Source: a virus. From it: a stretch of DNA of 20,619 nucleotides. Location of the stretch: the IMG/VR virus record IMGVR_UViG_3300022842_000794, positions 1 through 20,619 of that record; one strand, written 5' to 3'. Both the position numbers and the translations under genes were made by a program. This document shows, one piece after another, positions 3,430 through 18,629 of this stretch. The notes under the pieces were generated by a model. The model saw only the letters and a list, made by a program, of their open reading frames with translations. It did not search any database and had not been told where the DNA came from. Within the stretch, counting starts at the first letter, position 1; every line of letters begins with the position of its first letter.

Positions 3430-3893
3430 TATTGAATCAATTCCGGCTTGTAGACAGTTTTACCATTTTCTTTCATGGCAGTCAGTGATTGCTTACGATT
3501 GCCTTCTGATTTATAACTGACGTGTACCCAACCTGAATCAGGTATGCCTGGTGTGTAGAATTCTAAGATGAGTTGATCGAAGTCTAGGTTGTCTTCTATC
3601 CATTTGGCCACGTCATAGTTGCCTGTGCCTGGACACTCTATGTCCACTGCCTCACCTTTGCAGTGTTGTGAGTTGCTTGAACCACCTACTGCTTCGTTCA
3701 GTGCTGGTCCTCTGTATCCTGAGTTGATGACAGTGACACCAAAGTTCTCTCTGACTTTTTGCACAACATTCTCAAACAGTTCTTTTGCGTTTGCTAGATG
3801 TTCTTCGCCTGGAGTGTTATCAAGACCTTTTCTTGTGGCTGTCTGACTTTTTGTGAATTCTGCTAGTGTGAAGTTTGTGCTTAATCTTGTCAT
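3429..3893 (-). CDS. M15-family peptidase, putative endolysin
   Basis: This 154-residue protein matches the peptidase M15 (D-Ala-D-Ala carboxypeptidase / L-Ala-D-Glu endopeptidase) fold. The zinc motif appears as H77 and D84 in SQHCKGEAVDI, with the third ligand H124 in GWVHVS. The upstream segment NSGYRGPALNEAVGGSSNSQ is typical of the M15_3 group used as phage lysins and as tail or cell-wall peptidases. It would cut peptide crosslinks in host peptidoglycan. No signal peptide is visible, so release would need a holin, and a tiny membrane protein overlaps its stop codon. The N terminus, LSTNFTLAEFTKS, is the usual opening of this family, supporting the chosen start. Confidence 0.85.
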   Translation of the reverse strand: MTRLSTNFTLAEFTKSQTATRKGLDNTPGEEHLANAKELFENVVQKVRENFGVTVINSGYRGPALNEAVGGSSNSQHCKGEAVDIECPGTGNYDVAKWIEDNLDFDQLILEFYTPGIPDSGWVHVSYKSEGNRKQSLTAMKENGKTVYKPELIQ

Positions 3894-3901
3894 AATGTTT
3901 C

Positions 3902-4648
3902 TTACCAGTTGTGTTTACTTATAACAGCACTCTGTCCGCCTTTAGTAAAAACGAATTTATTCTCAAAGGTTTTGGTAATATGATATGGTCCAAAATATTT
4001 TGTAAGATACATACACTCAGACATTGACTGTTCGTCGAGCTTAAATGCTTTTGATTCTTTTAAGACCTGTGATGTTGAACCAAACGTATGTAGTTCAAAC
4101 TGCAAAGGATTTGCGTTTAGTTTTTTAACTTCAAATATATTATTTTCTAATTTAAATTCTAAGATCTTAAACTTGTCAAAGAAGCTATGCACTTCACCTA
4201 AACGGAGTTGATTAACTTTACTATTATAAGCAATCGATGTTCTAGGTAAAACGTTTGCTAAATTTTCTCTTGATGCTAAAAAAGGTTTATTTCTTTTGTG
4301 ATAGGTAAATTCAAAATTTTCAATATTAGTTAATTTACTTAGGTCGTCCAAAAATTCTTTTATGTATGAGTCTAGCTTTTCTTCTCTAGGAAATTCAATA
4401 AACACTCTGTACTGGCCGTCGTCCATTGTTCCCGGAGTTGCATCAGCATCTAGAACTTTTGTGTATCCTTTTTCGGCAAATCTTTCTAAATCTTTTGCTC
4501 CCTCGGCGTTAGAACAAACAAAAGCCAAGACACAAACATCTTTGTCTTCGCCCATTTTTGATTTAAATTGATCTACTGAGAATCGTTTTTCAACTATACC
4601 CTCAAGGTCGCCTGATCGTAGGCCTTCATTAAGTTGTTTCATTTTCAT
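3902..4648 (-). CDS. Unrecognised conserved-looking phage protein (248 residues)
   Basis: I cannot name a domain. The first half (about 15-110) reads as a compact alpha/beta unit with ordered hydrophobic strands, such as VCVLAFVC and YRVFIEF. The second half contains many aromatic residues and ends in AVISKHNW. I see no catalytic motif, signal peptide or membrane helix. The general look recalls a protein family found in T4-like marine phage genomes, but I am working from memory only. It overlaps the preceding gene by 20 bases, so the two are probably translated together and may act together. The start could be M1 or M3 (4648 or 4642). Confidence 0.75.
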   Translation of the reverse strand: MKMKQLNEGLRSGDLEGIVEKRFSVDQFKSKMGEDKDVCVLAFVCSNAEGAKDLERFAEKGYTKVLDADATPGTMDDGQYRVFIEFPREEKLDSYIKEFLDDLSKLTNIENFEFTYHKRNKPFLASRENLANVLPRTSIAYNSKVNQLRLGEVHSFFDKFKILEFKLENNIFEVKKLNANPLQFELHTFGSTSQVLKESKAFKLDEQSMSECMYLTKYFGPYHITKTFENKFVFTKGGQSAVISKHNW

Positions 4649-5156
4649 CTGTATCTAAAACTGTTTCATCTGTGTCAAATTTCTTTTGAATTTTATTTTC
4701 AACCCCGTTTTTAAAACTAGCTGTTAAACTTTTTGGCATACGTATTTCTACTATCCATATATCATGAGAATCAATTTTACCTTTTACTGTTCCTGGTCTG
4801 TAATCCTCTGGAGATTTAATTTCTCTAGGTTTGAACAATTCGTCTCTCTTATAGAAAACTTTGCAATCTCTGTCAGTTAATCTTTTTCCTCCTGAAGGAT
4901 CTGGCATCTTATCGCTAGGCCACATAAATGAACAAGTGACAAAATGTCTCGAATCAATTGGGCCAGAAACTAGTTCTCCGTCTTCCCAATTTTTAAAAAC
5001 ATATACATCTAACTCATCTAACACTCTTTCAAAATCTTTTAAAGAGTCAAGTGCCGGTGAAATACCGTATAGACCTTGTGTATTTTTGATGATATCTAAA
5101 ACGTCAAGCATTGTCGTATATTTAGCAGTGATAATTGGCTTGTGATATATGTACAT
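4629..5156 (-). CDS. Unrecognised conserved-looking phage protein (175 residues), start uncertain
   Basis: This soluble protein has a central segment rich in aromatic and acidic residues (FKNWEDGELVSGP, then FVTCSFMWP and KMPDPSGGKRL), a basic RPGTVKGKI stretch, and an acidic C-terminal tail (DTDETVLDTDENETT). No enzyme motif is visible. The first ATG gives 175 residues. The Met at residue 16 (5111), opening MLDVLDIIKNTQ, is an equally reasonable start, because neither has a clear Shine-Dalgarno sequence and the first 15 residues look less constrained. It precedes and overlaps the 248-residue protein. A virion or assembly role is possible but not shown. Confidence 0.7.
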   Translation of the reverse strand: MYIYHKPIITAKYTTMLDVLDIIKNTQGLYGISPALDSLKDFERVLDELDVYVFKNWEDGELVSGPIDSRHFVTCSFMWPSDKMPDPSGGKRLTDRDCKVFYKRDELFKPREIKSPEDYRPGTVKGKIDSHDIWIVEIRMPKSLTASFKNGVENKIQKKFDTDETVLDTDENETT

Positions 5157-5192
5157 ATATTAACCATGGTAAAATATTAAATACTTTTACAA

Positions 5193-5378
5193 ATGTCTCA
5201 TAAACAAAGACACATTAAATCACAATCAATCACAACCTACGAGGAACCCTATGTTATATCAAAGCCTACAACTGCGGCCTTTATTTCAGAGAAAATTATG
5301 GAAACTAATGAGGAAAAAGACTGTGTACGACAAGCGAGTGAAGTTGTACACAATGAATCAAAATTGGTTAAAGATTAG
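5193..5378 (+). CDS. Small hydrophilic frame, 61 residues, coding status doubtful
   Basis: This frame begins at the first ATG of a plus-strand gap between a divergent and a convergent minus-strand gene. The product is hydrophilic, with an acidic middle, and matches no family I know. There is no Shine-Dalgarno sequence before the ATG. It overlaps the 72-residue frame at 5251-5469 over most of its length, so either only one is real or the two overlap in different frames. Confidence 0.35.
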   Translation: MSHKQRHIKSQSITTYEEPYVISKPTTAAFISEKIMETNEEKDCVRQASEVVHNESKLVKD

Positions 5379-5469
5379 AAAACAGAAGGATAGACGTAGG
5401 CGTAGAATATTGACTAGATTATGGAAAGCAAAACAGTTGGCTATGCTTCAACGTATGTATAGGTGTTAA
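5251..5469 (+). CDS. Small very basic protein, 72 residues
   Basis: The ATG at 5251 follows CGAGGA (about 5240-5245) with good Shine-Dalgarno spacing, unlike the overlapping frame that starts upstream at 5193. The product is strongly basic, with KIRKQKDRRRRRILTRLWK in its second half, as in small nucleic-acid-binding proteins. The frame fills the gap exactly: its TAA shares bases with the TTA stop of the convergent gene at 5466. No known domain is visible. Nucleic-acid or anionic-surface binding is an inference from charge only. Confidence 0.45.
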   Translation: MLYQSLQLRPLFQRKLWKLMRKKTVYDKRVKLYTMNQNWLKIRKQKDRRRRRILTRLWKAKQLAMLQRMYRC

Positions 5470-6050
5470 ATTTTAGATAACCAAAGAGAGTGTGCTTGAT
5501 TGCAGAGCTGTTTGTCTAGCGATAGGCCAAGTTTTTTTGTTTCATCTAATAAATGGGTTATAAAATGTTTGCCCTCAAATAATTCATCGCCGTTGATGCT
5601 AATTATTTCATCATCAATGTGAAAACATTTTATAAAGTTTTCTTTGGTATAAAGACTTTTCATTTCATAATAAAAATAACTGTCTTTAAAAGCCGGGTAT
5701 AATTGACTCATCCTGTTATAACCTTTGCTTCTTTCCTCAGGCATTGTAATAATTACAAATTTTTTCTTTATAAGTTTAGCAAAGCCAAATCCAGAATATT
5801 CAAAAAAATGTGTTCCATAAGAACGATTCTTGCTTACAGTTTCTTTAATATCAATATTGTCTTTACTCAGCACATTGTTATCAAAATAGTGTGCCTTATT
5901 TGTAGTGTCTTTATAGTCTTCTATATTGAATCTAGACGTTAAGTTTTTGTCTGTTGAAATTAAGTTGGCTATGTGATTGCCTCCATTGCCAGGAGCAAAA
6001 ACTGTAAAGACATTATTAACTGTTGATGAATTCGTCGATGACATCTGCAT
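5466..6050 (-). CDS. Unrecognised protein, possibly sulfotransferase-like
   Basis: This 194-residue soluble protein begins with a short Ser/Thr/Asn-rich segment, followed by VFTVFAPGNGGNHIANLIS (about 15-33). That is a beta-strand, glycine-rich loop and helix, similar in layout to the phosphosulfate-binding loop of sulfotransferases. The C-terminal part, with ISINGDELFEG and then a helical region ending in AHSLWLSKI, also resembles the tail of phage sulfotransferase-like proteins. The match is weak, and I would not assign an activity. Its start overlaps the upstream small gene by 35 bases; the ATG two codons later (6044) is an alternative. Confidence 0.6.
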   Translation of the reverse strand: MQMSSTNSSTVNNVFTVFAPGNGGNHIANLISTDKNLTSRFNIEDYKDTTNKAHYFDNNVLSKDNIDIKETVSKNRSYGTHFFEYSGFGFAKLIKKKFVIITMPEERSKGYNRMSQLYPAFKDSYFYYEMKSLYTKENFIKCFHIDDEIISINGDELFEGKHFITHLLDETKKLGLSLDKQLCNQAHSLWLSKI

Positions 6051-6285
6051 ACCACTTTCTATAATGTTTGATCATATTTTTGTATGGTATATCCACTTTT
6101 TCTTTCATTGGCAATATATTTTTAATCACTTCTTCATTGACACAATCTAATATCACAGTGGCCTTACTAAATTTTCCAGATCCTACAGTTTTCTTTGATA
6201 ATTCAACAACCTCGTCAAATTTTCCATCTGGCTTAATATTATAATTTACTATAAAATATCTTTTCTTATTGTGTTTTTTACCCAT
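6016..6285 (-). CDS. Small basic protein coupled to the clamp-loader gene
   Basis: This 89-residue protein opens with GKKHNKKRYFIVNYNIKP and continues with a basic N-terminal half predicted as beta strands, then a C-terminal helix (YKNMIKHYRKWYADVIDEFI). I do not recognise a named family. Its ATG overlaps the stop of the gp44-like gene by eight bases (ATGGGTAA), implying coupled translation. In T4 the gene after 44 is 62, the small clamp-loader subunit. This product is much shorter than gp62 (187 residues in T4), and I see no similarity that would justify that name. Confidence 0.7.
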   Translation of the reverse strand: MGKKHNKKRYFIVNYNIKPDGKFDEVVELSKKTVGSGKFSKATVILDCVNEEVIKNILPMKEKVDIPYKNMIKHYRKWYADVIDEFINS

Positions 6286-7204
6286 TGTGTATCCTTGCTA
6301 GTTTGATCATCGTAGCCGCAAGATTTATTTCTGGATCTGCTACAAATGAATGGTCAACCAATCCTTGCTTTATTGCTAGAATGGCCTTGTCTTGTCCGTC
6401 ATCGTCTTTCGCAATCAATTCTAAATTATCATAGAGCCAACGGAAGATTTCCTCTACTTCTTCTGGTCTGGCTTGAGAACAAACAATTTTTCTTGCTTCT
6501 AGTATTTTACCTTGTTTGAACAGTTCTACCATTTCTAAACGATAGTCGGCTTGACCTTTGTCCGACTTGTCGGGTGCGTGTAAAGTACCATCTCTAGAAT
6601 TCATTTGTACAAGGTTGATACATTTTCTCATATCCGGATATGTAGCTTTTACATAGGTATCAATTAAATCGATATTTGGTTCGACCTTTTCAGAAATTAA
6701 TATTTCTGCTATACGAGCTGTGAACTCGTTTTTGTCTAAAGTTTCAATATGGAATCCTTGGCATCTGCTGTGTAGTGCAGGAATTACTCTGTTAGGATAG
6801 TTACAAGTTAGAACAAATCTTGCCGATGTGTGATATGTTTCCATAACACCACGAAGTGCCGCTTGTCCGTTGGGAGTGATATAATCTGCTTCATCTAATA
6901 GCACATATTTGAAATCACCAAATGGCATTATCTGTACAAAGTTTATGATCTTGTCTCTGACTGTGTCCACAGAGTTTTCTCTAGATGCGTTGATCTCTAA
7001 CATATCATACGGATCTACATTTAATTCTTGAAACAGTACTTTGGCCAGTGTAGTCTTGCCTGTGCCAGGAGCTCCTGAGAACAACAAATGTGGTATAGCA
7101 CCGTCTTTGAGCCAACCTTGAATCTGTTGTCTTTGATTTTCGTCACGAACCACATAATCTTTTAAAGATGTTGGTCTATATTTTTCTACCCATAGGTCTT
7201 TCAT
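6278..7204 (-). CDS. 44: Clamp-loader large subunit, AAA+ ATPase (T4 gp44 / RFC small-subunit type)
   Basis: This 308-residue protein is a clear clamp-loader ATPase. It opens with WVEKYRPTSLKDYV (RFC box I), has Walker A GAPGTGKT (44-51), Walker B VLLDEAD (101-107), sensor 1 in LTCNYPNR (132-139), and the SRC motif (146-148) that carries the arginine finger. Length and motifs match T4 gp44, which with gp62 loads the gp45 sliding clamp onto DNA for replication and, in T4, for late transcription. No gp45 or gp62 is identified in this window. The ATG follows an AT-rich leader with no strong ribosome binding site. The gene overlaps the next small gene, and a plus-strand radical SAM gene diverges from it 33 bases away. 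Confidence 0.97.
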   Translation of the reverse strand: MKDLWVEKYRPTSLKDYVVRDENQRQQIQGWLKDGAIPHLLFSGAPGTGKTTLAKVLFQELNVDPYDMLEINASRENSVDTVRDKIINFVQIMPFGDFKYVLLDEADYITPNGQAALRGVMETYHTSARFVLTCNYPNRVIPALHSRCQGFHIETLDKNEFTARIAEILISEKVEPNIDLIDTYVKATYPDMRKCINLVQMNSRDGTLHAPDKSDKGQADYRLEMVELFKQGKILEARKIVCSQARPEEVEEIFRWLYDNLELIAKDDDGQDKAILAIKQGLVDHSFVADPEINLAATMIKLARIHNG

Positions 7205-7237
7205 AAGCTAATTATTTTAATAGTTTTTAAATTTAAT

Positions 7238-8224
7238 ATGTATTCAACAGAAACCTTAGAACAAATTACCATTGAACCAACCAGTTATTGCAATGCTCGA
7301 TGTCCGCAGTGCGACAGGTTCGACGATAAAAATAATTTAATAGTTCCATTAAAACATCTAAATATTAGCATTTTACAACAGAACTTGCAACCTAAACTTC
7401 TACCCAATTTAAAACAAGTAGACCTTGAAGGTAATTGTGGTGATGTATTAAGCCATAAAAATCCGTTAGGATTATTGCTTGTTTATAAAGATGTTAAAAA
7501 GATTAGAATGGTAACAAACGGATCCGTTAGAGGTGTTGAGTTTTTTAAAGATCTAGCACAATTTAAAAATACAGAATTGGTATTCAGCGTTGACGGATTG
7601 CAAGACACAAACCATTTGTATAGACAAGAATGTAATTTTGAAAAAATAATGTCGAATGCCGAATCCTACATCAATGCCGGCGGCAATGCAACTTGGAAGT
7701 TTATTGTTTTTAAACACAACGAACATCAAATCAACCAAGCAAAAGAGCTAAGTCAAAAAATTGGATTTAAAAATTTTATAGTACAACATAGTGATAGAAG
7801 TTGGTATCACGGATGGAAATGGCCTGTCTACAATAACAACACCTATCAATATGATCTTGAACCTAGTAGTATGTTTGAAAAGTCGTTGTCAAGCGATCAT
7901 AGTAAATTAAATGAAAAACTTATAACAATTTATAAACAAAATAAAGTTGTTAAACAATGTCCAATGGCACTGCAGAAGAAAATTTTTGTAGATTATAATG
8001 GTTATGTTATTCCTTGTTGTATGCTTAGTAATGACTTGTGGAATGAAACTTATAATACTAAATTTTTAAAAAAATATGTTAAAGATCTAGGAACCATAAG
8101 TCTTTATAAAAACAATATTAAGAAAATATTTGAGGGAGAATTTTATAAGAAGGATTTGCCCATGAGCTTTAAAACAAAACCAATGCCAAAATGTCTTCTT
8201 TATTGTGCTGAAAAAAAATCTTAA
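7238..8224 (+). CDS. Radical SAM protein with C-terminal SPASM/twitch-like cysteines
   Basis: This 328-residue protein carries the radical SAM [4Fe-4S] motif CNARCPQC (C18, C22, C25) right after a beta strand, EQITIEPTSY. The GNCGDV and MVTNGS segments resemble the SAM-binding strands of the partial TIM barrel. A second cysteine group follows: C241, C260, C261, C319 and C323, with VDYNGYVIPCCML between. This is typical of SPASM or twitch domains that bind extra Fe-S clusters in peptide-modifying and other enzymes. The substrate is unknown, and no precursor peptide is obvious next to it. It is a single plus-strand gene between minus-strand gp44 and the co-chaperonin, and its stop shares TTAA with the co-chaperonin stop. 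Confidence 0.88.
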   Translation: MYSTETLEQITIEPTSYCNARCPQCDRFDDKNNLIVPLKHLNISILQQNLQPKLLPNLKQVDLEGNCGDVLSHKNPLGLLLVYKDVKKIRMVTNGSVRGVEFFKDLAQFKNTELVFSVDGLQDTNHLYRQECNFEKIMSNAESYINAGGNATWKFIVFKHNEHQINQAKELSQKIGFKNFIVQHSDRSWYHGWKWPVYNNNTYQYDLEPSSMFEKSLSSDHSKLNEKLITIYKQNKVVKQCPMALQKKIFVDYNGYVIPCCMLSNDLWNETYNTKFLKKYVKDLGTISLYKNNIKKIFEGEFYKKDLPMSFKTKPMPKCLLYCAEKKS

Positions 8225-8685
8225 TCGTTTCCAGGCAGTTTAGTCATCTGTTGGGCACCGCCCATGTTGACGTACCCTGCTTGTTTGTTATTGTGTTCAG
8301 GTTCGTCTTGTGACACTAACAATATATCATTTTCGTCAATCATTCTCACTTCTAGTTCAACGCCGATGTCACCTGCTGATCCTTTTTCTTTTCTTTTGAG
8401 TTTGAAAGCCCTGGACCATCTACCATGCGAGACCATTATCCATTCACCTACTTTAACATCAACTTGATCTTTGCCAACAGCATATACCTTGCCCCATCTA
8501 GGATGTATGCCTCCTGCTGTACCGTCATCATCAACTATGATAATTCCGCCTTTGGACTTTGTTTCTCCAAAGTGCATGTCAGAAACTAGTACTCTATTTT
8601 TAAGTGGTGTGATATCGTTCTCGACAGTGTATTGCTTTCCACCATCTCCACCGAATCCTTTTGCCTGTGCTGATTTTATGTCCAT
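8221..8685 (-). CDS. Co-chaperonin, GroES/T4 gp31 type
   Basis: This 154-residue protein has a Cpn10 fold signature: ITPLKNRVLV (25-34), a mobile-loop region ETKSKGGIII (41-50), GKVYAVG (65-71) and VKVGEWIMVS (77-86). The loop is closer to bacterial GroES (ETKSAGGIVL) than I would expect for a T4 gp31 loop. Compared with the usual 95-residue GroES it has a 20-residue glycine-rich N-terminal extension, a longer middle (RWSRAFKLKRKEKG) and a longer tail. It would cap host GroEL and help fold phage proteins, as gp31 does for the T4 capsid protein gp23. A TATAAT hexamer at 8700-8695 on the minus strand lies only nine bases before the ATG, giving an unusually short leader if used. Confidence 0.88.
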   Translation of the reverse strand: MDIKSAQAKGFGGDGGKQYTVENDITPLKNRVLVSDMHFGETKSKGGIIIVDDDGTAGGIHPRWGKVYAVGKDQVDVKVGEWIMVSHGRWSRAFKLKRKEKGSAGDIGVELEVRMIDENDILLVSQDEPEHNNKQAGYVNMGGAQQMTKLPGND

Positions 8686-8706
8686 CGTAGTACTATTATA
8701 CTAGAT

Positions 8707-9105
8707 TTATTCTAATCCGTCAAGAGCCGCATCAATGCCTGATTTTGGTTCTTCTTTTTTTGGTGCTTTTTTGATGATGTTAACAGGCGTTGGCTTAACT
8801 TTTTTAACTGTAGGATTCATTACTTGAACCTGTTCTACTCTTGGTTGAGGAATAGGTGTAACTTTTTGTGTTTTTTTTACAGTTGTGTCCTGCGCCTTGC
8901 CTTTAGGTGTTTCGTAATACTGTTTCATAACTGCATCTTTTGATTTTATTATTTGACCATTTTTGCCCAACACGTCTCCACGAGCATTGACCCCCATATT
9001 ACCAACAGCAGGTGTTTCGAGGTTTGATGATCTTAATTTGTCTATATCCACCATACGTCCTTGCATGGTCCTATACATTTTTTTTCTTACTGGTTGTCTA
9101 GCCAT
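8707..9105 (-). CDS. Basic, Pro/Lys-rich phage protein of unknown function
   Basis: This 132-residue product has a basic N-terminal part (MARQPVRKKMYRTMQGRMVD), a conserved-looking middle (PAVGNMGVNARGDVLGKNG, about 33-51), a disordered Pro/Lys/Val-rich stretch (about 78-120) and an acidic end (IDAALDGLE). I recall similar N-terminal and middle segments in T4-like marine phages but not an assigned function. The layout of a folded head plus charged disordered tail would suit a scaffolding, head-core or DNA-associated protein, which is inference. A strong Shine-Dalgarno sequence (AGGAG, complement at about 9115-9119) supports the start. It lies just upstream of the co-chaperonin gene on the same strand. 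Confidence 0.75.
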   Translation of the reverse strand: MARQPVRKKMYRTMQGRMVDIDKLRSSNLETPAVGNMGVNARGDVLGKNGQIIKSKDAVMKQYYETPKGKAQDTTVKKTQKVTPIPQPRVEQVQVMNPTVKKVKPTPVNIIKKAPKKEEPKSGIDAALDGLE

Positions 9106-9142
9106 TATCGTTAACTCCTAATTTTACTTATCATCTCAAAAA

Positions 9143-9967
9143 TTACAACAACAAATGTTTGAACTTATTGGCATTGTCTTTTATATATTTTGGTAAAACA
9201 TCAAAGCCAACTTTTTTTAAATCTGTTGTTGGGTTATTGTAGTTGTATCTACCATTAAATAAGTCTTGTTGATTGTTTAATTTTTCTCTTATTTGATCTA
9301 CAGTTAATTTGTTCTCTGGTCTGTAGTTAATAAAAGATTGAATTTTTTTATAAATTCCTGTTTCAGGTAACACATAAGAAAAATGCCACCCGCCCGGATC
9401 AACTAACTGTGAGCTTAATGTATCATAATTTCCAAGGTTCTTGTGATAATTCAAATGCATTCTCAGTTCTTGGCAATTACCAAGTTTTCCGTGTTTTATT
9501 CCTTTTGGATGTTTATCCCATGGTGTATATGCAGGATTGAGTAGATTTAATTTTCCTTGAAAACACAGTTGTTTAAAAATAAAAAGATCTTTTTCATAAT
9601 CTAAATTTTCTATTATAGGTATCTCGTCAACATCACACAATAAAATTATATCGTCTACATCGGCATCGTGTAGTCCTTGCTTAATTTGTTCTCGTAAATT
9701 ATATTCTCTTTTTCGACCAGAACTGTGTTTTTCTGACCATGTTGGAAGTTTTTGCCAATCCACGTCCTGTTCTTTGACTTGAAAATATCTTATCTTATGC
9801 TCAAATTTTTTATTATTCTTAAATTGAAAGCCTTTGTAGTTGTCCGCAAAGTCATAATCTGCCTCGACTATAACGAAATAATCAACAAATTCATCCAAGA
9901 CTTCAAATCTAAGTTCAAGTAAATCATTCTCTAGACCGGAATAAGGAAAACAGTCGTATATCTTCAT
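9143..9967 (-). CDS. Glycosyltransferase family 17-like protein
   Basis: This 274-residue protein matches the GT17 pattern (the family of eukaryotic beta-1,4-N-acetylglucosaminyltransferase III, with many bacterial and phage members). It opens with KIYDCFPYSGLENDLLELR (2-20), followed by VDYFVIVEADYDFADNYKG, and has the metal-binding DxD-type motif as DVDEIP (112-117). A WHFSYV segment lies in the C-terminal half. The enzyme would transfer a sugar from a nucleotide donor; the acceptor could be host surface glycan or a virion component. Its ATG overlaps the stop of the polymerase III alpha-like fragment by four bases (ATGA), so the two are co-translated although their functions look unrelated. 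Confidence 0.85.
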   Translation of the reverse strand: MKIYDCFPYSGLENDLLELRFEVLDEFVDYFVIVEADYDFADNYKGFQFKNNKKFEHKIRYFQVKEQDVDWQKLPTWSEKHSSGRKREYNLREQIKQGLHDADVDDIILLCDVDEIPIIENLDYEKDLFIFKQLCFQGKLNLLNPAYTPWDKHPKGIKHGKLGNCQELRMHLNYHKNLGNYDTLSSQLVDPGGWHFSYVLPETGIYKKIQSFINYRPENKLTVDQIREKLNNQQDLFNGRYNYNNPTTDLKKVGFDVLPKYIKDNANKFKHLLL

Positions 9968-10488
9968 CTCAAAAATTCTTTATAATCGAGCTCATAAAGT
10001 AACGGATTTATTTTGTGTACACCTATTAAAAATAAACAAAAACTTGAAACTGAACTTCCTCTGCCAACACCCCATACCACATTATTATTTCTAAGAGTAT
10101 CTATGAAATATATTAAAAACTGCAGAACTTTAATAAATCCTTTTTTATTAAACAGTTTCATCTCATCAATAACTCTTTGCTTTTCCGTATCGTTGGCACA
10201 TTTATCAAGCAACCATTGTTCAACATTTATTGTTTCGTAATGCACAGGCATAAACCATTGTTCTGTGTTTGCAAGGTCAAATTCTTCAAGTGGCAATGTG
10301 CTTTTCAGTAATTGTTTTGGAACCGGCAAATCTATCCCCGAGTCGTGTAATGCTTGTAGATATTGGTCGGGCGATTCAAGATGTAGTTGTGAAATATCAG
10401 TAAGTGGATTTGAATATATGTGTTCTATGAGATAGTCTTCTTTAAAGACACAGTCACCGTACTCATTTATTTTTATTTTTTCCACCAT
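9964..10488 (-). CDS. Fragment of DNA polymerase III alpha subunit (C-family), lacking the catalytic Asp motif
   Basis: The last third of this 174-residue protein, from about KGFIKVLQFLIYFIDTLRNN (116-135) through VVWGVGRGSSVSSF (137-150) to DYKEFLR at the end, aligns by eye with the start of the polymerase III alpha palm: a helix, the GxGRGS loop that binds incoming nucleotide, and the sequence leading to the ERFLN segment. In complete enzymes the catalytic DxD (D401/D403 in E. coli) comes soon after; here the frame stops first. The N-terminal part (about 1-100) is not recognisable as a PHP domain. The protein therefore cannot be a polymerase alone. It might bind nucleotide or a partner, complement another fragment elsewhere in the genome, or be a relic, although the frame is intact and overlaps both neighbours. 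Confidence 0.75.
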   Translation of the reverse strand: MVEKIKINEYGDCVFKEDYLIEHIYSNPLTDISQLHLESPDQYLQALHDSGIDLPVPKQLLKSTLPLEEFDLANTEQWFMPVHYETINVEQWLLDKCANDTEKQRVIDEMKLFNKKGFIKVLQFLIYFIDTLRNNNVVWGVGRGSSVSSFCLFLIGVHKINPLLYELDYKEFLR

Positions 10489-11095
10489 CTATTACTTTCG
10501 CATTAAATTCAAAAATTTTTGCATTCTCGGGTTTTTTAACCTCAGTATTTGGTACTGGGTTCCACGGAAAGTGTCCTGAATATATTCCTTTTGATAATTC
10601 TTTGTCATAAGTTGCTGTATCATTTCTTAACCACCATGGGTCAAACTTATTATACTTGGTTGAAAACCAATTGTCAACGTCAAGCAACTGAAGTTCTGTG
10701 TAGTCTTTTTCTACAGTATAACTAATACCATCTCCTTGAAAACTTTCTAGTTCTATACTGTCTACTACAATTTTACCTTCTAAAATAGCAGTTGATTTGG
10801 TAAAACAAACAGCTGACATTATTTGATCGTATGGAGGTTTTGGCAATTCTATAAATCTATTACTAGTATGTTTTTGTAAAACTTTGTATAATGGCTCATT
10901 TCTTGCTGTTATTATAGAGTTGTTAAAAATTACGTGATAGAGAGTTTTTAATCTTTCAAAATATATGTTTTGCTCAGCAAGATTGGATGTTATAGGTCTT
11001 ATCTTTATTTTTACTGTATAATTGTTATAGAATAGCTCTCCGTCAACTACTATGATACCTTTAAAATCTGTTGCCCAATTGAAGTTTTTTTTCAT
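10463..11095 (-). CDS. Unrecognised protein upstream of the polymerase III alpha-like fragment
   Basis: This 210-residue soluble protein looks mixed alpha/beta. Its notable segment is the aromatic run FDPWWLRNDTATYDKE (about 151-166), followed by YSGHFPWNPVPNTE. No signal peptide, membrane helix or metal motif is visible. It overlaps the polymerase III alpha-like gene by 26 bases, strongly suggesting one operon and possibly a joint function. No Shine-Dalgarno sequence is evident before the ATG at 11095; the leader is AT-rich with a direct ATAACT repeat. Confidence 0.7.
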   Translation of the reverse strand: MKKNFNWATDFKGIIVVDGELFYNNYTVKIKIRPITSNLAEQNIYFERLKTLYHVIFNNSIITARNEPLYKVLQKHTSNRFIELPKPPYDQIMSAVCFTKSTAILEGKIVVDSIELESFQGDGISYTVEKDYTELQLLDVDNWFSTKYNKFDPWWLRNDTATYDKELSKGIYSGHFPWNPVPNTEVKKPENAKIFEFNAKVIDGGKNKNK

Positions 11096-11225
11096 TGTTT
11101 TAATTAGTTATAGTTATAGTCATTATGTGCATACATTTCAGAGTAGATATAATGGTAATTTTAGTTTGTATCTTTAATATCTAGGTAAATAATTACATTA
11201 TAACAGAATTTAGGAGTAGAAAACA
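11096..11225. promoter_or_regulatory. Divergent intergenic region between unrecognised gene and 2OG oxygenase
   Basis: These 130 AT-rich bases separate divergent genes. On the plus side there is a late-like octamer variant GGTAAATA (11184-11191), a -10-like TATAAC (11199-11204) and a strong Shine-Dalgarno TAGGAG (11211-11216), nine bases before the ATG at 11226. On the minus side no ribosome binding site is clear; ATAACT occurs twice in tandem just upstream of the ATG at 11095. No hairpin or RNA gene stands out. Confidence 0.5.
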
Positions 11226-11903
11226 ATGGTACAAATTATAGAGAATGCATTGACTGAACAAGAATTAACACAAATAAGAGCGTTTGATCTTATTGAGGAT
11301 TCATCAGTACAACAAGGAAGAAAATATAGAAACAAGACTGTAAAGAACGACAGTGTAGATCAGTTATCTAATCCGGCAATAGCATTTGTACTTGAAAAAG
11401 TTAAAAAATTAATTCCTGAAAATCACCAAGTTTGTGATATGGTTCTTCACACTACTGAACAAGGTATGCAAATTCACTCAGACGGAAACATTAACAAAAA
11501 AGATCACAAAGCAATTTTATTTCCAATAAACGTTGAAGCCGAAGGCGCTGGAACAATCTTTTTTGAAAATCAATATTTAGGTGAAGGCCCAATGGTTTTT
11601 GCAAAAAATAACCCATGGGGCGGAAGTAACAAAAACAAAGACCCTAAAAACTCTTCAAAAAGAAAAATCACAGCAGACTATTCGGTAGTAACAGACTATA
11701 AAGAAACTGCTAACATCGCCGAAGTACACAAAAAACACTTAGGTCATATACCTGCTGAAAACTCAAACGGATTAACCATTGAAAAAATTTATAAATGGAA
11801 ACCGGGACAAGCAGTTATTTTTGATTCTACTCAGTTACACTGTGCTACTAACCACGTAGGTTATAAGACAGCTTGTACAGTTTTTACAAGACTAGTTGAC
11901 TAA
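11226..11903 (+). CDS. 2OG-Fe(II) oxygenase (prolyl-hydroxylase-like)
   Basis: This 225-residue protein has the iron facial triad pattern. H84 and D86 lie in MQIHSDGN, distal H205 in TQLHCATNH, and K214 nine residues later is a plausible 2-oxoglutarate-binding residue. The strands ILFPINVE, GTIFFEN and QAVIFDS fit the double-stranded beta-helix core. A hydrophilic insert rich in Asn, Lys and Ser (about 127-150) interrupts the core. Such proteins are common in T4-like marine phages; the substrate is unknown. It is a lone plus-strand gene with a strong Shine-Dalgarno sequence and an AT-rich hairpin at its end. Confidence 0.8.
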   Translation: MVQIIENALTEQELTQIRAFDLIEDSSVQQGRKYRNKTVKNDSVDQLSNPAIAFVLEKVKKLIPENHQVCDMVLHTTEQGMQIHSDGNINKKDHKAILFPINVEAEGAGTIFFENQYLGEGPMVFAKNNPWGGSNKNKDPKNSSKRKITADYSVVTDYKETANIAEVHKKHLGHIPAENSNGLTIEKIYKWKPGQAVIFDSTQLHCATNHVGYKTACTVFTRLVD

Positions 11904-11916
11904 AATAAATTTTTAG
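11900..11916. terminator. AT-only hairpin between convergent genes, weak bidirectional terminator
   Basis: CTAAAA (11900-11905) is the inverted complement of TTTTAG (11911-11916), around a five-base loop. The hairpin overlaps the oxygenase stop codon and lies just before the stop of the convergent small helical gene at 11918. A stem with a single G-C pair is weak, and no long U tract follows, so termination is a tentative reading. Confidence 0.3.
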
Positions 11917-11917
11917 A

Positions 11918-12172
11918 TTATTCGATATTAACAAGTTCGCCCATGTCGGGTTCGTTTCTTGCTTTTTTCATATTATCATGAAAGCTCTTAATTCTACGAG
12001 TTCTTAATTCACCTCTATAGCTTTCAAGTGCGTTGTTAAGTTGCCCAATAAGTTCAGGGTTCCTGCCAAATCGAGTAGCAGATGCTTTCTTCTTTGATAA
12101 TTCTTGTATTTTTTTAGATATGTCTTCGTCGGAAAGTTTGCTAAATTCTTCTTGTAGTGGATGGAAATACAT
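11918..12172 (-). CDS. Small helical protein after the fibre genes
   Basis: This 84-residue, highly charged protein is probably almost entirely alpha-helical, with long amphipathic stretches (KLSDEDISKKIQELSKKKA and then LIGQLNNALESYRGELRTRR). No domain is recognised. It follows the short fibre-like gene by 12 bases, with a strong Shine-Dalgarno sequence (GGAGG, complement about 12178-12182), so it is probably the last gene of the virion-surface operon. A role as assembly factor, fibre chaperone or structural accessory is inferred from position only. Confidence 0.7.
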   Translation of the reverse strand: MYFHPLQEEFSKLSDEDISKKIQELSKKKASATRFGRNPELIGQLNNALESYRGELRTRRIKSFHDNMKKARNEPDMGELVNIE

Positions 12173-12184
12173 TCCTGCCTCCTA

Positions 12185-12748
12185 TTAGCTGTAGTTGTTG
12201 CCCAACTGGTGCATCAATATCGTTGTGCCACCATCTGGACTCATAAACTCGTACAAGTATCTACCTGATTCAGTTAATGTGATAGAGTCTGAACTGCCAT
12301 CTGCTCCTGATACATTTCCTGATACCAATACACTTGATGGTATTGTAATTACGTGTGCCACTGATGCTACAGTTATATCAAGGATTATTCTTCCTAGAGT
12401 TGTTGTTAACGGCATATTTGTAATTGCCAATGTAATTGAACCTGTAGTTGTCGCTGTTTGATAGTGTCCGTTTTCGTGATTGAGTGTAGTTGCACCGGTT
12501 ACGTTACCATGTACATAAACTGTTTCAGCAGTGTCTTTTAATACTGCCTTTGTTACAACATTATCTGCAAAGTTTGATGAAGCATTTAAAGAAGCCTTGT
12601 TTGATTGTAGGTCTTCTATTTCAGTTTTTGCATTTGTAAAATTGTTTTTTACTGCTGTAAAATTATCTCTGAACCCTTGAGAACTATTGTCTTGTCCCGC
12701 TATTGGGAAAGTTCCATCTATGTTACCTGGTACTATGTTACTTGCCAT
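12185..12748 (-). CDS. Short tail-fibre-like virion protein
   Basis: This 187-residue protein begins with a module related to the neighbouring fibre proteins: a glycine-rich opening, then SSQGFRDNFTAVKNNFTNAK (22-41), comparable to the R-x2-F-x4-NF pattern of the four paralogues further upstream. After a helical linker the remainder (about 70-187) is Thr/Ser/Gly/Val-rich beta structure with no visible enzyme motif. It probably forms a trimeric or beta-sandwich surface protein attached through the shared N-terminal module. It follows the 872-residue gene by one base (TAATATG), with AGAGGAAT just upstream as ribosome binding site. A GATAAATA octamer at 12781-12788 may add a separate late promoter. 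Confidence 0.75.
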   Translation of the reverse strand: MASNIVPGNIDGTFPIAGQDNSSQGFRDNFTAVKNNFTNAKTEIEDLQSNKASLNASSNFADNVVTKAVLKDTAETVYVHGNVTGATTLNHENGHYQTATTTGSITLAITNMPLTTTLGRIILDITVASVAHVITIPSSVLVSGNVSGADGSSDSITLTESGRYLYEFMSPDGGTTILMHQLGNNYS

Positions 12749-12749
12749 A

Positions 12750-15368
12750 TTATTCCTCTAGTTTCTTTTTAAATGCTAGGTATTTATCACCTTTACGCTC
12801 CACCCTAATCTTAGATGAGGCTATTGGAGCATTTGTAAACACTATTGTTGTTTTTTTGGTTGAACCGTCGTGCGTTAGTCTAAATTGAGGTTCGTAGTCG
12901 GTGCTCCTCAAGGAACTGTCAGCCGCTAAAAATGTTGGCTTCAGTAAATTATCTGCAGTTACTTGATCACCGTATTCCAAAATTGTAGAATTTTCTCTAA
13001 TTTTTATTTCTTCTTCGTGTACTATTTCGTTTATTTCAAATGTTGTAGTAGACCCATCTGGAGTGATTGTTCCAGTATCAACTTTGTGCCCTTTCACTAC
13101 ATATCTATCTATTTCGTAATCAATTTTTTTAAAGTCTATAGATTTATCTAGTATTCTGCTTCTCACAATGCTAGATTTGCCAGGTTTACAATAAGCTAGG
13201 ACAATGGCCATCCTATAACCTAGAGGAACACCTGCGTTATCCTGTGACGTTCTCATCCACAATGGCATATGTACGTATTCTTTTTGTCCAAGGCTTTTCA
13301 TTTGTGATCTCATATTGGCCACCGCATTCGGGTAGAGTCTTTCAAAGTTTCCTAAGTCAGCTGATAAAGGATTGCTGTATCTTATTTTTGATCCGGAAAT
13401 ACTAAAATCTAATCCACTATCGGTCGTTACATTATAAACATCGTAATCCACTGTTATTCTAGAAGCATCAGCCAATGGACCAATCAAAGGTTTAGTAATA
13501 CTATTTCTTAAATCAACAGTAGTTGACACGGCCTTTCCTAGTTTATTGACAAACTGGTCTTGCATTTCTATATAAACTACTTCGTACTTTGTATTTCCAT
13601 TTTCTTTAGCAACTGCTGTTTTTACATCACCAAAGTATAATTTTTTTGGTGAATGATTTTTTTCCATTTGTTCCTGTAATGTTTTTAAAGTTTGCTGTTG
13701 TAGTCCAGATATCAACAGCATTTCGGCAGTGTTTTTTATTCCAAAATTATTATCTTCGGGTCTAAAAATAAATTCTTCTTTGTTTATATTCGGATCCTGG
13801 GCAATTTGAAAGAATAAATCTCGATCACTTAAACTATTTTCTTTATTATTAATCAATCCCTGTGCATACATATTACCATATTCAACCCCGTATGGTAGAC
13901 TAACTTTAAGGGTAAATTCTTTTGTAGCGGCGGTGCTTTGATATTGATCGTTTGCTGTTACTGAAAAGGTATATTCTCTGTCAAAACTCAAAGAGTTTGT
14001 GTCAAATGTAACTTCATTTATGTCGACTGTTGTGAATTCTGTTAGATCTACATTTCCAATTATATTTCCTGCTCTACTTAAACTTAATCCTGTAGGCAAT
14101 GAGCCAGAAATAATATTATATTCTAATACACGGTTGGCTTCTGCCGCTTGTGCTTCAATTGATAACAAACTAGGTATGCCTGCTGTCACTGTTCCGAGAG
14201 TTGCTGATGTAACAAAACTTATTCCTACTTCAATTTCTCCTATAACAGTCATTGTAAACTGTTTGTCAGCAAATACAGAAACACCAGGATATGGAGTTCG
14301 TGTTGCTCTTATCGTAAACGTGTAATTGGTTTCAACGGCCGCTTGTCTAGATAAAGTTCCAGCAATTTCTCCTGTGCTTGTATCTATACTCAGTCCGTTG
14401 GGAATACTACCACTAACTATAGAATATTCTAGATCTCCCTGTAATTTGTCAAAGTCCTCTACATCAATTTTAATTACTACATTGTTATCGTGTTTGAATG
14501 TTCCGAGAGCTGATTCTGTTGAGAATATAGGTTTTCTGTTTCCACTCAAACTCATGGTTAAAGAATATCCGTCTTGTACAGTTTGATCAACAGTTATTAT
14601 TGAGTTATCTACTCTAAAATAATCTGCAGTATAAACAAAAATATTGTTTATTTGTGTGATACTACTAGCCCCGTCGGAAACTCTTACTATAAATTCATAA
14701 TTCTGTGATCTAGATTTTGATCTTGTTGTAGGATCATAAGGAACATCATCGTAGTCATATACATTGTCATAACCGCCAACTTCACCAAATTTTTCATCGT
14801 CAGTAAGACGTATTACACCAGAAATTAACCCAGTTGGAGAAATAGTAACACCTGGAGGTAATTTACCTGAAGCAACATCATAGACAAGGGTCTGGCCTGT
14901 GGCTGTATCAGTATCGGTCGCTGTAATTTGATATTCTACATAACTGCCGTCTATAACAACAAGGTCTCTTGAAGTGTCTGCTGTAACGATTGTATTATCA
15001 GCAAGTAGTATTTCGGAGTCAGCAGTTTTTAATGATGTGTCGGCAAAATCTAACTGCCCACTAGGTGTTCCAAAAATAGGTAGATCTGCCCCTTGTATTT
15101 GTAAAGAAAAAAATCTGTCGGCTATAACCGTTCCGTCCGAAGCACGAATAACAAAATCGTATAAACTTCGAGTTGAAACTTCAAACGGAGTGCCTTGTAG
15201 TAATCCTGTAGAAGTAAGTTGTATACCGGGAGGTAGGGTTCCTGCAATGTGCAAGTAAGTCAAACTAGTGCTGTCCGATGTGTTTGCTTCTAACTGATTA
15301 GAATAGAATTCACGCTCGTTGATTACACCCAAAGATCCTGTTGTAGTAGACCACTTTACATTTGCCAT
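12750..15368 (-). CDS. Large virion protein with four putative Ig-like (He_PIG) repeats
   Basis: The 872-residue product contains four cadherin/Ig-like units typified by LPPGIQL (45-51), LPPGVTI (170-176), IPNGLSI (322-328) and LPTGLSL (424-430). Each is followed by a T-G-x-I-x-G strand and a YDFVIRASDG or YTFTIRAT strand. This is the putative Ig (He_PIG) domain seen on phage and bacterial surface proteins. The C-terminal 370 residues are not repetitive and contain a charged segment near 540-600 and a DGSTTTFEIN strand. It is most likely a long tail-fibre or decoration protein that contacts host glycans. A TATAAATA octamer lies 20 bases upstream, supporting late expression. No cleavage or transmembrane signal is seen. 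Confidence 0.85.
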   Translation of the reverse strand: MANVKWSTTTGSLGVINEREFYSNQLEANTSDSTSLTYLHIAGTLPPGIQLTSTGLLQGTPFEVSTRSLYDFVIRASDGTVIADRFFSLQIQGADLPIFGTPSGQLDFADTSLKTADSEILLADNTIVTADTSRDLVVIDGSYVEYQITATDTDTATGQTLVYDVASGKLPPGVTISPTGLISGVIRLTDDEKFGEVGGYDNVYDYDDVPYDPTTRSKSRSQNYEFIVRVSDGASSITQINNIFVYTADYFRVDNSIITVDQTVQDGYSLTMSLSGNRKPIFSTESALGTFKHDNNVVIKIDVEDFDKLQGDLEYSIVSGSIPNGLSIDTSTGEIAGTLSRQAAVETNYTFTIRATRTPYPGVSVFADKQFTMTVIGEIEVGISFVTSATLGTVTAGIPSLLSIEAQAAEANRVLEYNIISGSLPTGLSLSRAGNIIGNVDLTEFTTVDINEVTFDTNSLSFDREYTFSVTANDQYQSTAATKEFTLKVSLPYGVEYGNMYAQGLINNKENSLSDRDLFFQIAQDPNINKEEFIFRPEDNNFGIKNTAEMLLISGLQQQTLKTLQEQMEKNHSPKKLYFGDVKTAVAKENGNTKYEVVYIEMQDQFVNKLGKAVSTTVDLRNSITKPLIGPLADASRITVDYDVYNVTTDSGLDFSISGSKIRYSNPLSADLGNFERLYPNAVANMRSQMKSLGQKEYVHMPLWMRTSQDNAGVPLGYRMAIVLAYCKPGKSSIVRSRILDKSIDFKKIDYEIDRYVVKGHKVDTGTITPDGSTTTFEINEIVHEEEIKIRENSTILEYGDQVTADNLLKPTFLAADSSLRSTDYEPQFRLTHDGSTKKTTIVFTNAPIASSKIRVERKGDKYLAFKKKLEE
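12781..12788 (-). promoter_or_regulatory. Late promoter-like octamer GATAAATA
   Basis: The minus strand reads GATAAATA, one base from the T4 late consensus. It lies inside the end of the 872-residue gene, 33 bases before the ATG of the short fibre-like gene. It could give that gene its own late transcript. Confidence 0.4.
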
Positions 15369-15387
15369 TGTTTATTACTTCCAATGG

Positions 15388-15395
15388 TATTTATA
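15388..15395 (-). promoter_or_regulatory. T4-type late promoter octamer TATAAATA
   Basis: Exact match on the minus strand, in the gap between the 486-residue fibre gene and the Ig-repeat gene, about 20 bases before the latter's ATG. It is one of the best-placed late promoter candidates in the window. Confidence 0.65.
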
Positions 15396-15411
15396 GTGAA
15401 TTAAGTGATTA

Positions 15412-16872
15412 TTAACTAGCCGCGTAATACGGTATAGCAAACACAGTACCACCTAGGTTTAATTTAAGGTATCCTGTTGGCTGTGCCGGAATAGCCGTCG
15501 CACCACCTGCCGATCCCACAGTTGTCTGTGTTTGTGGATTGTTAATTCTAACTGTACCTGAACCCTGTGTACCTAAAATTAGATCAGAGTTTGTAGCAGA
15601 TTGTTGAATTGATGCAGATGCTCCTAGTATAAGTTCTGAACCAACAGCAACATCTGTTGCGGCAAGTTCGTTTGTTACAGCAACAATGTTACCACCTAAA
15701 GTTATAGTTCCAGTTCCGTTTGGAGTAATGTTAATACCACCATTGGTATTTGTTGATATTATTGTGTTGGCGTTAATATTAATATTGTCAACACCAAGAT
15801 CACCTGTGATTCCTACTGATCCTGTAATTGTTTGACCAATTGTGGTCATTGCCTTTTGTATATCTATAATACCTGTTCCAGCGGCATCAATTTCTAAATT
15901 GTCATTGGTGTTAGCCGATGTAATCTTATTATCTTTTAATAGCACACTGTCTGTTTGTAGTGTTCCAGTGACAACAACTTGTCCTGTTATTGTTACATCG
16001 TTTGTAGTAAGAGTTCCTGTTACATTAACATTTTCAGCCAATGTAATTAATGTAGAATCATCTGATGAAATAGTAGTTCCATTTACTTTAACAGCACCTA
16101 ATATAACGTTTCCAGTTCCGCCTGGGGAAATATTGATGTTTGCATTTGAACTAGAACTTATTGTGCTATCGTTGAGTATTAAATTGTCAACAGTAATGTT
16201 TCCAGTCATCGTGGCCGCATTTATTGTTGGGTTGGTCAATATTTTATTTGTAAGTGTCTGCGATCCGGTCAATGTCACAACAGTGCCGTCTATGGCCGTT
16301 GTCACTGTGTTGTTTACTGCTGATGTTGTGATTCCTGTCCCACCTGAGAACTGCATCACTTCTGAATCTAGGTCAATAGAATTTGTTGTTGAATCGTCTG
16401 CCGTGAAATCTAGGTCACTTGCCGTCACCTGTGCGTCAACGTAAGTCTTGATTGCACCCTGTGTGGCCAACAGTGTTGCACTTGTGCCCAATGCACCGTT
16501 GTCTATGCCTGTGACAGTTGCACCTGAGGCCAATGCTAAACTTGTTGATAAAGTTGTTGCACCTGTAAATGTCTGTGTACCAGAAACTGTTAGTATTCCA
16601 GTTACATTTGTGTTTCCTTCAAGCTCAACTGTACCTGTTCCGTTTGGAATAACTCTAATATTTACATTTGATACAGCTGATGTAATATTAAATCCGTTTA
16701 TGTCTAGATCTCCACCCAGTTGAGGAGTTGCGTCTTCTATTAGGTCATTGGCCTCGGCCGTTGTTCCGTATAATTCTGTAAAGTTATCGTTGATCTTGTC
16801 AAATGCTGATCTTAATGGATCTCCTGTACCGTCGTTTGCACTGGATCCTATGTTGATTGATTGTTTAGCCAT
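15412..16872 (-). CDS. Tail-fibre family protein, long paralogue (486 residues)
   Basis: The N-terminal module (SINIGSSANDGTGDPLRSAF followed by DKINDNFTELY, residues 5-35) is shared with the three genes upstream. The body is built of repeated strands of the form N-x-N-[IL]-x-[IL]-x-P-x-GTG-x-[VI]; I count five good copies, plus intervening Thr/Ser/Val-rich strands such as TVTLTGSQTLTNK and TGTLTTNDVTITG. Almost no Cys, Trp or charged clusters occur, as expected for a fibrous beta-helical or beta-prism trimer. It probably attaches to the tail through the shared head and exposes a variable tip that recognises the host. A GATAAATA octamer and an AAGGAA ribosome binding site precede it. Confidence 0.85.
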   Translation of the reverse strand: MAKQSINIGSSANDGTGDPLRSAFDKINDNFTELYGTTAEANDLIEDATPQLGGDLDINGFNITSAVSNVNIRVIPNGTGTVELEGNTNVTGILTVSGTQTFTGATTLSTSLALASGATVTGIDNGALGTSATLLATQGAIKTYVDAQVTASDLDFTADDSTTNSIDLDSEVMQFSGGTGITTSAVNNTVTTAIDGTVVTLTGSQTLTNKILTNPTINAATMTGNITVDNLILNDSTISSSSNANINISPGGTGNVILGAVKVNGTTISSDDSTLITLAENVNVTGTLTTNDVTITGQVVVTGTLQTDSVLLKDNKITSANTNDNLEIDAAGTGIIDIQKAMTTIGQTITGSVGITGDLGVDNININANTIISTNTNGGINITPNGTGTITLGGNIVAVTNELAATDVAVGSELILGASASIQQSATNSDLILGTQGSGTVRINNPQTQTTVGSAGGATAIPAQPTGYLKLNLGGTVFAIPYYAAS

Positions 16873-16896
16873 TTTTAAATTCCTTTTTGTTGCTGA

Positions 16897-16904
16897 TATT
16901 TATC
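16897..16904 (-). promoter_or_regulatory. Late promoter-like octamer GATAAATA
   Basis: The minus strand reads GATAAATA in the 60-base gap before the 486-residue fibre gene, 24 bases from its ATG, followed by an AAGGAA ribosome binding site. One mismatch to the T4 late consensus. Confidence 0.5.
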
Positions 16905-16932
16905 TGTAATTCTATAAACCGAATGTAAAATA

Positions 16933-17781
16933 TTACACATCCATTAGTATTTTTACAAATTTAAAAACTGTAGAATTGTTGGATATAGGTGTTACTCTAA
17001 TCCTTACGTTGTCACCGTCTATGTCCGCAGTGTAGACTCCTAAACTATCAGTATAACTAGACACAGATCCAAATGTACTGACGTATGCTGTGGTTCCGTT
17101 GTGTGTTACATTGGCTTCTACTGTCTCATACCTACCGTTTGTGGTATCTGTTGCAGATATAAAGTATTTGGCACTCCTGTATAGAGTTTTATCAAACGTA
17201 TCAATATTAGATGTCGTTGATGTGGCAACGGTCGCTGTGCCATCTAGTATATTACTATGATCTAAACTGACTCCTGCTGTGGCAAAACTTAATACTCCGC
17301 TTCCGTTGGTTTTAAGGAATTGTCCTGATGAGCCATCCGTTGTAGGAAAAGCAAAACCATTTACTTCCACTGTTCCTGAGCCGTTACCGCCTAGTTCTAA
17401 ATTGGCATTTGAGATATTTGTAGAAATTGTGTTGTCTTTGAACGATATAGAATCAATAGACACTGACCCTGTGCCTGCCGCATCCAGTTCGAGATTGCTA
17501 TTAGTAACTGTAGTTGTTATTTTGTTATCGCTTATCTGTATGTTGCTGTCTATTAGTATTTTATTTGCTGTAACATCGCCGGTTCCTGAAGCTATCAATT
17601 TTATATCGTCATTGGTTCTGTTTGCCGATATATTATTACCACTAATGGTTATGCCAGAATCAACAGCAGTTTCATTATAGAGTTCAACAAAGTTAGTATT
17701 AATTTTTTCCATTGCGGCACGAAGTGTATCACCTGTACCATCATTGGCATTAGAACCTATGTCAATAATTAATCTTGTCAT
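16933..17781 (-). CDS. Tail-fibre family protein, paralogue with conserved C-terminal domain (282 residues, copy 1)
   Basis: The shared head module (IDIGSNANDGTGDTLRAAM followed by EKINTNFVELY, about 5-35) is followed by three GTG-type repeat strands (about 55-150) and a QFLKTNGSGVLSF linker. The C-terminal domain, about 185-282, carries YRSAKYFISATDTTNGRYE and ends VFKFVKILMDV. That C-terminal domain is clearly homologous to the one in the adjacent gene of identical length, so the pair arose by duplication. Its ATG overlaps the upstream stop by one base (TAATG), with AAAGGAAG as ribosome binding site. It is probably a tail-fibre subunit; two diverged copies may form a heteromer or present two specificities. 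Confidence 0.82.
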   Translation of the reverse strand: MTRLIIDIGSNANDGTGDTLRAAMEKINTNFVELYNETAVDSGITISGNNISANRTNDDIKLIASGTGDVTANKILIDSNIQISDNKITTTVTNSNLELDAAGTGSVSIDSISFKDNTISTNISNANLELGGNGSGTVEVNGFAFPTTDGSSGQFLKTNGSGVLSFATAGVSLDHSNILDGTATVATSTTSNIDTFDKTLYRSAKYFISATDTTNGRYETVEANVTHNGTTAYVSTFGSVSSYTDSLGVYTADIDGDNVRIRVTPISNNSTVFKFVKILMDV

Positions 17782-18629
17782 TATACTTCCTTTAATATCC
17801 TTACAAATTTAATCACGTGTGCATCGTTACTGACTGGAACAGCTCTCAATCTAGCATTTCCGCCGCTGACATCTGCCGAAAAAGTTAATAATGGTAGACC
17901 AAAACTATTTACACTGCCAGCTGAACTGACATAAGCATTCGTTCCGTCGTGTATCATGTTAACTGTTACAAATTCAAATCTACTATTTGTGCTGTCAGAA
18001 ACACTTATAAAGTATTTCCCCGACCTATACTGAGTAACATCAAATTCATTAACAGTTGCTTCTGCACTACTATTTAAAGTAACAGTACCGTCTGATATAT
18101 CTGACAAGGCTGTAATTATATCCGGTAAGACCCATGCAAGGTCTTTGGATCCGTCTGTCGTTAAAAGATAATTGTCAGGAGCATCAGTACCTGGTATGTT
18201 AAATCCGTTGATTTTAATTATACCTGTTCCATTTGGTGTTAAGTTTATATTGTTTGAAGAGTTGGTATTGACTATCTTATTGTGTGTAAATTTTAATTGA
18301 TCTATGATAATACTTCCTGTACCTGACGCATCGAGTTCGAGATCAGCATTTGATACAGTTGTTTTAATTGTGTTGTCAATAATTTTAATATTGTCATCAA
18401 TTTTTAAACTAGACAAAACTACTTGTCCTGTTCCGCTTGGTGCTAAATTTATGTTCCCATTTGTTGACACTGATGTTATGTTGTTTCCGGATAACCTTAT
18501 GTTAGAGTCAACAGCAGTCTCTAAGTATAGCTCTTCAAAGTTCTCATTTACTTTCTGTCCGGCAATCCTGAAAGTATCACCTGTGCCGTCATTTGCTACT
18601 ATACCTATGTTGATTGTTTCTCTGGCCAT
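17781..18629 (-). CDS. Tail-fibre family protein, paralogue with conserved C-terminal domain (282 residues, copy 2)
   Basis: Same architecture and length as the following gene: head module (INIGIVANDGTGDTFRIAG followed by QKVNENFEELY), three GTG-type strands (for example NLAPSGTGQVVL and LTPNGTGIIKIN), a DNYLLTTDGSKDLAWV linker, and a C-terminal domain with YRSGKYFISVSDSTNSRFE ending VIKFVRILKEV. The C-terminal domain diverges at many positions while keeping the frame and aromatic core. It starts one base after the stop of the 122-residue gene, so these fibre genes form one transcription unit. A role in host attachment is inferred from the fibre architecture. Confidence 0.82.
   Translation of the reverse strand: MARETINIGIVANDGTGDTFRIAGQKVNENFEELYLETAVDSNIRLSGNNITSVSTNGNINLAPSGTGQVVLSSLKIDDNIKIIDNTIKTTVSNADLELDASGTGSIIIDQLKFTHNKIVNTNSSNNINLTPNGTGIIKINGFNIPGTDAPDNYLLTTDGSKDLAWVLPDIITALSDISDGTVTLNSSAEATVNEFDVTQYRSGKYFISVSDSTNSRFEFVTVNMIHDGTNAYVSSAGSVNSFGLPLLTFSADVSGGNARLRAVPVSNDAHVIKFVRILKEV

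Follow-up and report, generated by a model that had tools for sequence, protein, structure and literature searches.

We propose that a 174-aa open reading frame on the 20.6-kb stretch of viral DNA analysed here (the window) is probably the gene for one of two proteins, the N-terminal subunit, that form a minimal C-family polymerase specific to phages, a split Pol III alpha whose halves pair and which has an accessory role. As judged from sequence, both halves are homologous to DnaE, the split is collinear and conserved, the N-terminal half (N half) is under purifying selection and the two halves co-occur. The N-half features of the window are as follows.

9964–10488, minus strand: predicted N-terminal subunit of a split minimal Pol III alpha, 174 aa (PF07733, phrog_11127, conserved end, dN/dS, AlphaFold/Foldseek)
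10051–10071, minus strand: GVGRGSS loop, residues 140–146 (invariant positions in 57 diverse relatives)
9964–9975, minus strand: conserved C-terminal end, F-L-R-stop (alignment of relatives and mapping onto DnaE)

The initial annotation, made from the letters alone, had described the product as a C-family polymerase fragment, and the profile search it suggested as a check returned such a match. PF07733 was found at E 2.3e-11 (44.3 bits against a cut-off of 23.9; profile positions 16–94 of 260), phrog_11127 matched over nearly its whole length (E 3e-42; positions 8–171 of 171) and residues 104–173 aligned to residues 323–392 of E. coli DnaE. The frame is intact and starts with ATG, and it overlaps both neighbours as had been claimed, by 26 bp with the upstream gene (10463–11095) and by 4 bp (ATGA) with the glycosyltransferase-17 gene (9143–9967). 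The GVGRGSS loop had also been read correctly, and by homology it is expected to bind the triphosphate of the incoming nucleotide; W139, G140, G142–S146 and S149 are invariant among 57 diverse relatives. The protein indeed stops before the DxD motif and lacks the catalytic aspartates. Since the alignment runs up to DnaE residue 392, the end falls about 8 residues short of D401, which we take to be the first catalytic aspartate of E. coli DnaE, and F-L-R-stop lies just ahead of where one-chain polymerases have their DxD strand. The N half is thus not a one-chain DnaE, in which a single polypeptide has the aspartates, the thumb and the fingers. When all six frames of the 20.6-kb window were searched with a sensitive profile method, no catalytic half came up.

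A short gene without catalytic aspartates could be read as what is left of a full-length polymerase after decay or a frameshift, and the conservation of the N half makes this reading barely credible. By tblastn the N half was present in 86 phage records, and a pattern scan confirmed it in at least 575 IMG/VR stretches; a genome scan returned only six loci, in MAG contigs. Every full-length relative in the alignment ends at the same residue, though the genes downstream differ, and no continuation of the polymerase was found in any frame, which excludes a frameshifted full-length enzyme, the outcome named at the outset as fatal to the fragment reading. Among genes of the window's clade, which is about 33–36% identical to the N halves of enterobacterial jumbo phages, the median dN/dS was 0.08 and the maximum 0.29 (85 pairs), indicating purifying selection. 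Neither relaxed selection nor irregular ends among relatives, the marks of a pseudogene, were found. The window N half is a complete, conserved gene, neither decayed nor an accidental fragment, and the earlier argument against simple decay holds.

The initial annotation had regarded the fragment as an oddity and had listed, among other options, that it complements a second fragment. We found that it is better described as the N-terminal part of a split enzyme that recurs, made up of phrog_11127 and phrog_11778. In seven jumbo-phage genomes (121Q, RaK2, CBB, XbC2, Phosso, PAC2 and SCTP-2), PF07733 scored above cut-off only at the N half, and weak finger-domain matches led to proteins of about 200 aa annotated as ‘DNA polymerase’ or hypothetical, e.g. 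121Q gp16. These start with TDIDIDF, carry KVDIL, RPGK and FKKPHA, and belong to phrog_11778. Dismissal of the weak matches as noise was rejected, as they proved to be real C-terminal halves (C halves), with the exception of one match in a long open reading frame (L095). A C-half profile also matched PAC2 and SCTP-2, so all seven jumbo genomes hold both halves. With Atu_ph07 and Vibrio phage 2.275.O, both halves are present in nine named phage genomes, which supports the complementation option, the pairing itself being predicted from sequence. The C half is a protein of about 195–200 aa from a distant gene that starts with DIDID, holds the third aspartate and ends in finger motifs. D3, D5, D7 and D68 are invariant (45 sequences), the finger motifs RPxK and FKKxHA are kept, and the gene sits in a replication block with uvsW, primase and gp41. 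In coliphage 121Q the pair consists of gp56 (N half, 172 aa) and gp16 (C half, 212 aa).

The two halves are encoded apart in every genome examined. This separation, together with the homology of the N half to host DnaE, would suit a protein that on its own mimics part of host DnaE or binds a host replisome subunit. We consider that quite improbable given the near-complete co-occurrence with the C half, conservation that is centred on the nucleotide-binding loop, and hosts that span several bacterial groups. The initial annotation had also offered interference with the host replisome and mimicry of the palm as options, and our analysis turned up no evidence in favour of either. Among listed phage accessions with an N half, 68 of 73 were also among the C-half matches listed, the other five being Klebsiella phages that fall past the end of that list. 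Five of six contigs of at least 200 kb that were chosen by their N half also have a C half. One 288815-bp contig (G069, locus L352) has an N half and gave no C half with two profiles, one of them broader, reflecting either an incomplete contig or a real loss; four contigs of 194–290 kb chosen by their C half showed no N half and may be incomplete. Another contig (G070, 117.7 kb) carries two N-half copies of equal score, at 22490–23005 (+) and 94662–95177 (−), possibly an inverted-repeat assembly artefact.

Structure prediction, also proposed with the initial annotation, gave confident AlphaFold models for the N half (pLDDT 89.4, pTM 0.69) and the C half (pLDDT 90.9, pTM 0.79). In Foldseek searches against the PDB, C-family polymerases were the top matches for each half, with probability up to 1.00, a best E of only about 0.002 and loose superpositions. 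On mycobacterial DnaE1 the N half maps to 337–406 and the C-half motifs to 414 onward, 639–665 and 774–787, placing the split between the GRGS helices and the DxD strand. Alignment spacing implies that about 110 residues are gone at the DnaE thumb and about 90 in the fingers.

These features suggest how the enzyme might work. The N half would supply the helical half of the palm, its GVGRGSS loop holding the triphosphate of the incoming nucleotide. The C half (about 195 aa), whose gene lies at a distance, next to those for the primase and the gp41 helicase, would supply the DIDID pair, the third aspartate and reduced fingers. The two would then associate into one active site, forming a thumb-less mini Pol III alpha that may act in repair, gap filling or on one strand beside the B-family replicase. 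We infer binding between the halves, polymerisation by their complex and an accessory role for it from the homology, the place of the split and the joint occurrence of the two genes. The absence of a thumb region and the presence of a B-family replicase make an accessory role more likely than bulk replication, and with the thumb and much of the fingers missing, polymerase activity of the pair is not assured. The main rival reading accepts that the halves assemble but into a nucleotide-binding regulator or a specialised nucleotidyltransferase, with the Pol-beta-type active site used for another reaction. The residues lost from thumb and fingers and the phages' own B-family replicase speak for it, as do the invariant metal-binding aspartates, which make some metal-dependent chemistry likely. 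However, RPxK and FKKxHA are retained and the C half lies in the replication block, and we judge this reading unlikely.

We next consider where the second half for the window's own phage may lie. The window-clade contigs G001 (about 117–118 kb, the largest), G063 (103 kb) and G002 (84 kb) carry gp44, gp43 and the N half; UvsX, uvsW, primase and gp41 are absent from these fragments. G001 also gave no capsid, terminase or helicase match, and the window is itself a fragment. Genes like gp43 occur on five window-clade contigs (G001, G002, G005, G063 and G064), none within the window, and a B-family polymerase is present in all seven jumbo genomes, so the co-existence with a B-family enzyme that had been supposed does occur. 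A sensitive profile search found no C half in the window or in window-clade contigs of up to 117 kb, which are fragments, and no contig was found to carry both a window-clade N half and any C half.

A candidate partner is a clade of C halves starting with MPDVDIDF, which sits in a block of the uvsW/primase/gp41 type syntenic with 121Q. On its longer contigs the replication block is followed by terminase and capsid genes, and gp43 and gp44 were not found there. Sample 3300025502 contains a C half of this clade and a contig 99.985% identical to window positions 4962–18226. Among the matches listed, the clade appeared in 17 of 50 samples with the window clade versus 0 of 50 with other N halves, a descriptive and habitat-confounded comparison; over pooled samples a Fisher test for co-occurrence was not significant (p 0.14) because every pooled sample was positive for something. 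Two MAG bins hold window-clade N halves, 60% and 56% identical to that of the window, and both have a PDVDIDF C half on a separate contig in the same replication block (81% and 74% identical to the C half of sample 3300025502). The second bin has another, different N half, which leaves the first as the only bin with a single N half and a single C half. Together, these good though indirect links by sample and by MAG bin make the PDVDIDF/MPDVDIDF clade the likely second half for the window's phage. A clade of the NIAKTDIDIDV type, first taken up for its shared samples, was rejected because a 328-kb contig carrying it has its own, different N half. In the Rickettsiales MAG MED657 we observed two different N halves (NZHE01000019.1, locus L578, 8591–9118; NZHE01000025.1, locus L574) and one C half; two phages have therefore probably contributed contigs that were binned with this MAG.

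Near the split C half, after gp41, some contigs also encode a one-chain C-family polymerase of about 545–565 aa, matching PF07733 over its full length and PF17657, with no PHP match. It was present in 8 of 29 MPDVDIDF-clade contigs with at least 2.8 kb after gp41, and its positions include the following.

G086, 23592–25280, minus strand: one-chain PHP-less C-family polymerase
G085, 62338–64026, plus strand: one-chain PHP-less C-family polymerase
G099, 3609–5297, minus strand: one-chain PHP-less C-family polymerase
G062, 7503–9131, minus strand: one-chain PHP-less C-family polymerase

We tentatively raise the idea, an unlikely one, that some of these marine phages have three DNA polymerases. 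The B-family replicase would be joined by the split C-family enzyme lacking a thumb, which might be a switch or nucleotidyltransferase that exists only once both halves have been produced, and by the one-chain PHP-less form of about 565 aa next to gp41.

The surroundings of the N half are partly conserved. The neighbouring genes in the window are these.

10463–11095, minus strand: upstream 210-aa protein, function unassigned (homologues near the N half in relatives; without Pfam or PHROG match)
9143–9967, minus strand: glycosyltransferase family 17 (PF04724), between the N half and the small protein
8707–9105, minus strand: small protein, phrog_14844, function unassigned (syntenic with the N half in jumbo phages by position)
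8221–8685, minus strand: GroES-like co-chaperonin, phrog_931 (syntenic neighbour of the N half)
6278–7204, minus strand: T4 gp44-like clamp loader large subunit, phrog_168 (syntenic neighbour of the N half)

The order N half, small protein, GroES, gp44 is common, by position, to the window, 121Q, RaK2, CBB, XbC2, PA5oct and Phosso, and SCTP-2 has its clamp loader at the same place relative to the N half. The window differs from the named jumbo relatives in the glycosyltransferase-17 gene directly 3' of the N half, which is not at this place in them and is thus not part of the split-polymerase system, and in an opposite-strand gene (7238–8224, +). The latter, between GroES and gp44 and likewise not there in the named relatives, has a start that by eye reads radical-SAM-like (CxxxRCPQC). 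Homologues of the upstream 210-aa protein (190–250 aa) adjoin the N half in many but not all relatives, distant phages among them, and mostly overlap it slightly; in a profile search no HTVC008M protein, the sliding clamp and the baseplate hub gp26 included, matched the 210-aa protein significantly. On visual comparison, an 84-aa protein (11918–12172, −) resembles the short MHPL-type proteins that many relatives encode immediately upstream of the N half.

The split minimal DNA polymerase III alpha of group 2.2 jumbo phages has been described in silico (Iyer et al. 2021, PMC7824862), and PF07733 has been reported as unique to the marine jumbo-phage cluster PGC_A, in 51.9% of it (Weinheimer and Aylward 2022, PMC9123017); the latter lists the domain only, and the word ‘split’ occurs nowhere in its text. 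We found no report in the literature of a bench test of the split enzyme for binding or activity. The split enzyme was therefore already known; our analysis adds its extension to the window clade, the fixed end, purifying selection and a probable second half. That hundreds of large phages should keep, alongside a B-family replicase, an active site shared out between one small protein with the GRGS loop and another with the DxD strand is a striking prediction, and the intact N half of the window hints at the identity of the PF07733 marker in large marine phages.

Compared with the pairs of Iyer et al., such as 121Q gp56 and gp16, the window N half belongs to the same family over its length and has the same end, and its clade shares the neighbourhood (small protein, GroES, gp44) and the B-family polymerase; unlike those phages, the window clade is uncultivated and mostly marine, and its C half has been tied to it through shared sample and MAG bin only. 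The PGC_A marker is the same Pfam domain, there in large marine phages. Bacterial DnaE (E. coli, 2HNH; mycobacterial DnaE1, 5LEW) has the homologous palm segment and GxGRGS block, but is one chain of about 910–1200 aa with PHP, thumb, full fingers and three aspartates, all of which the window gene lacks. The one-chain PHP-less DnaE-like polymerases of phages (phrog_405, phrog_11165; forms of about 565 aa) likewise have a C-family palm and fingers, whereas they hold both halves of the active site in one polypeptide and turn up additionally in some marine contigs where the split C half is also encoded.
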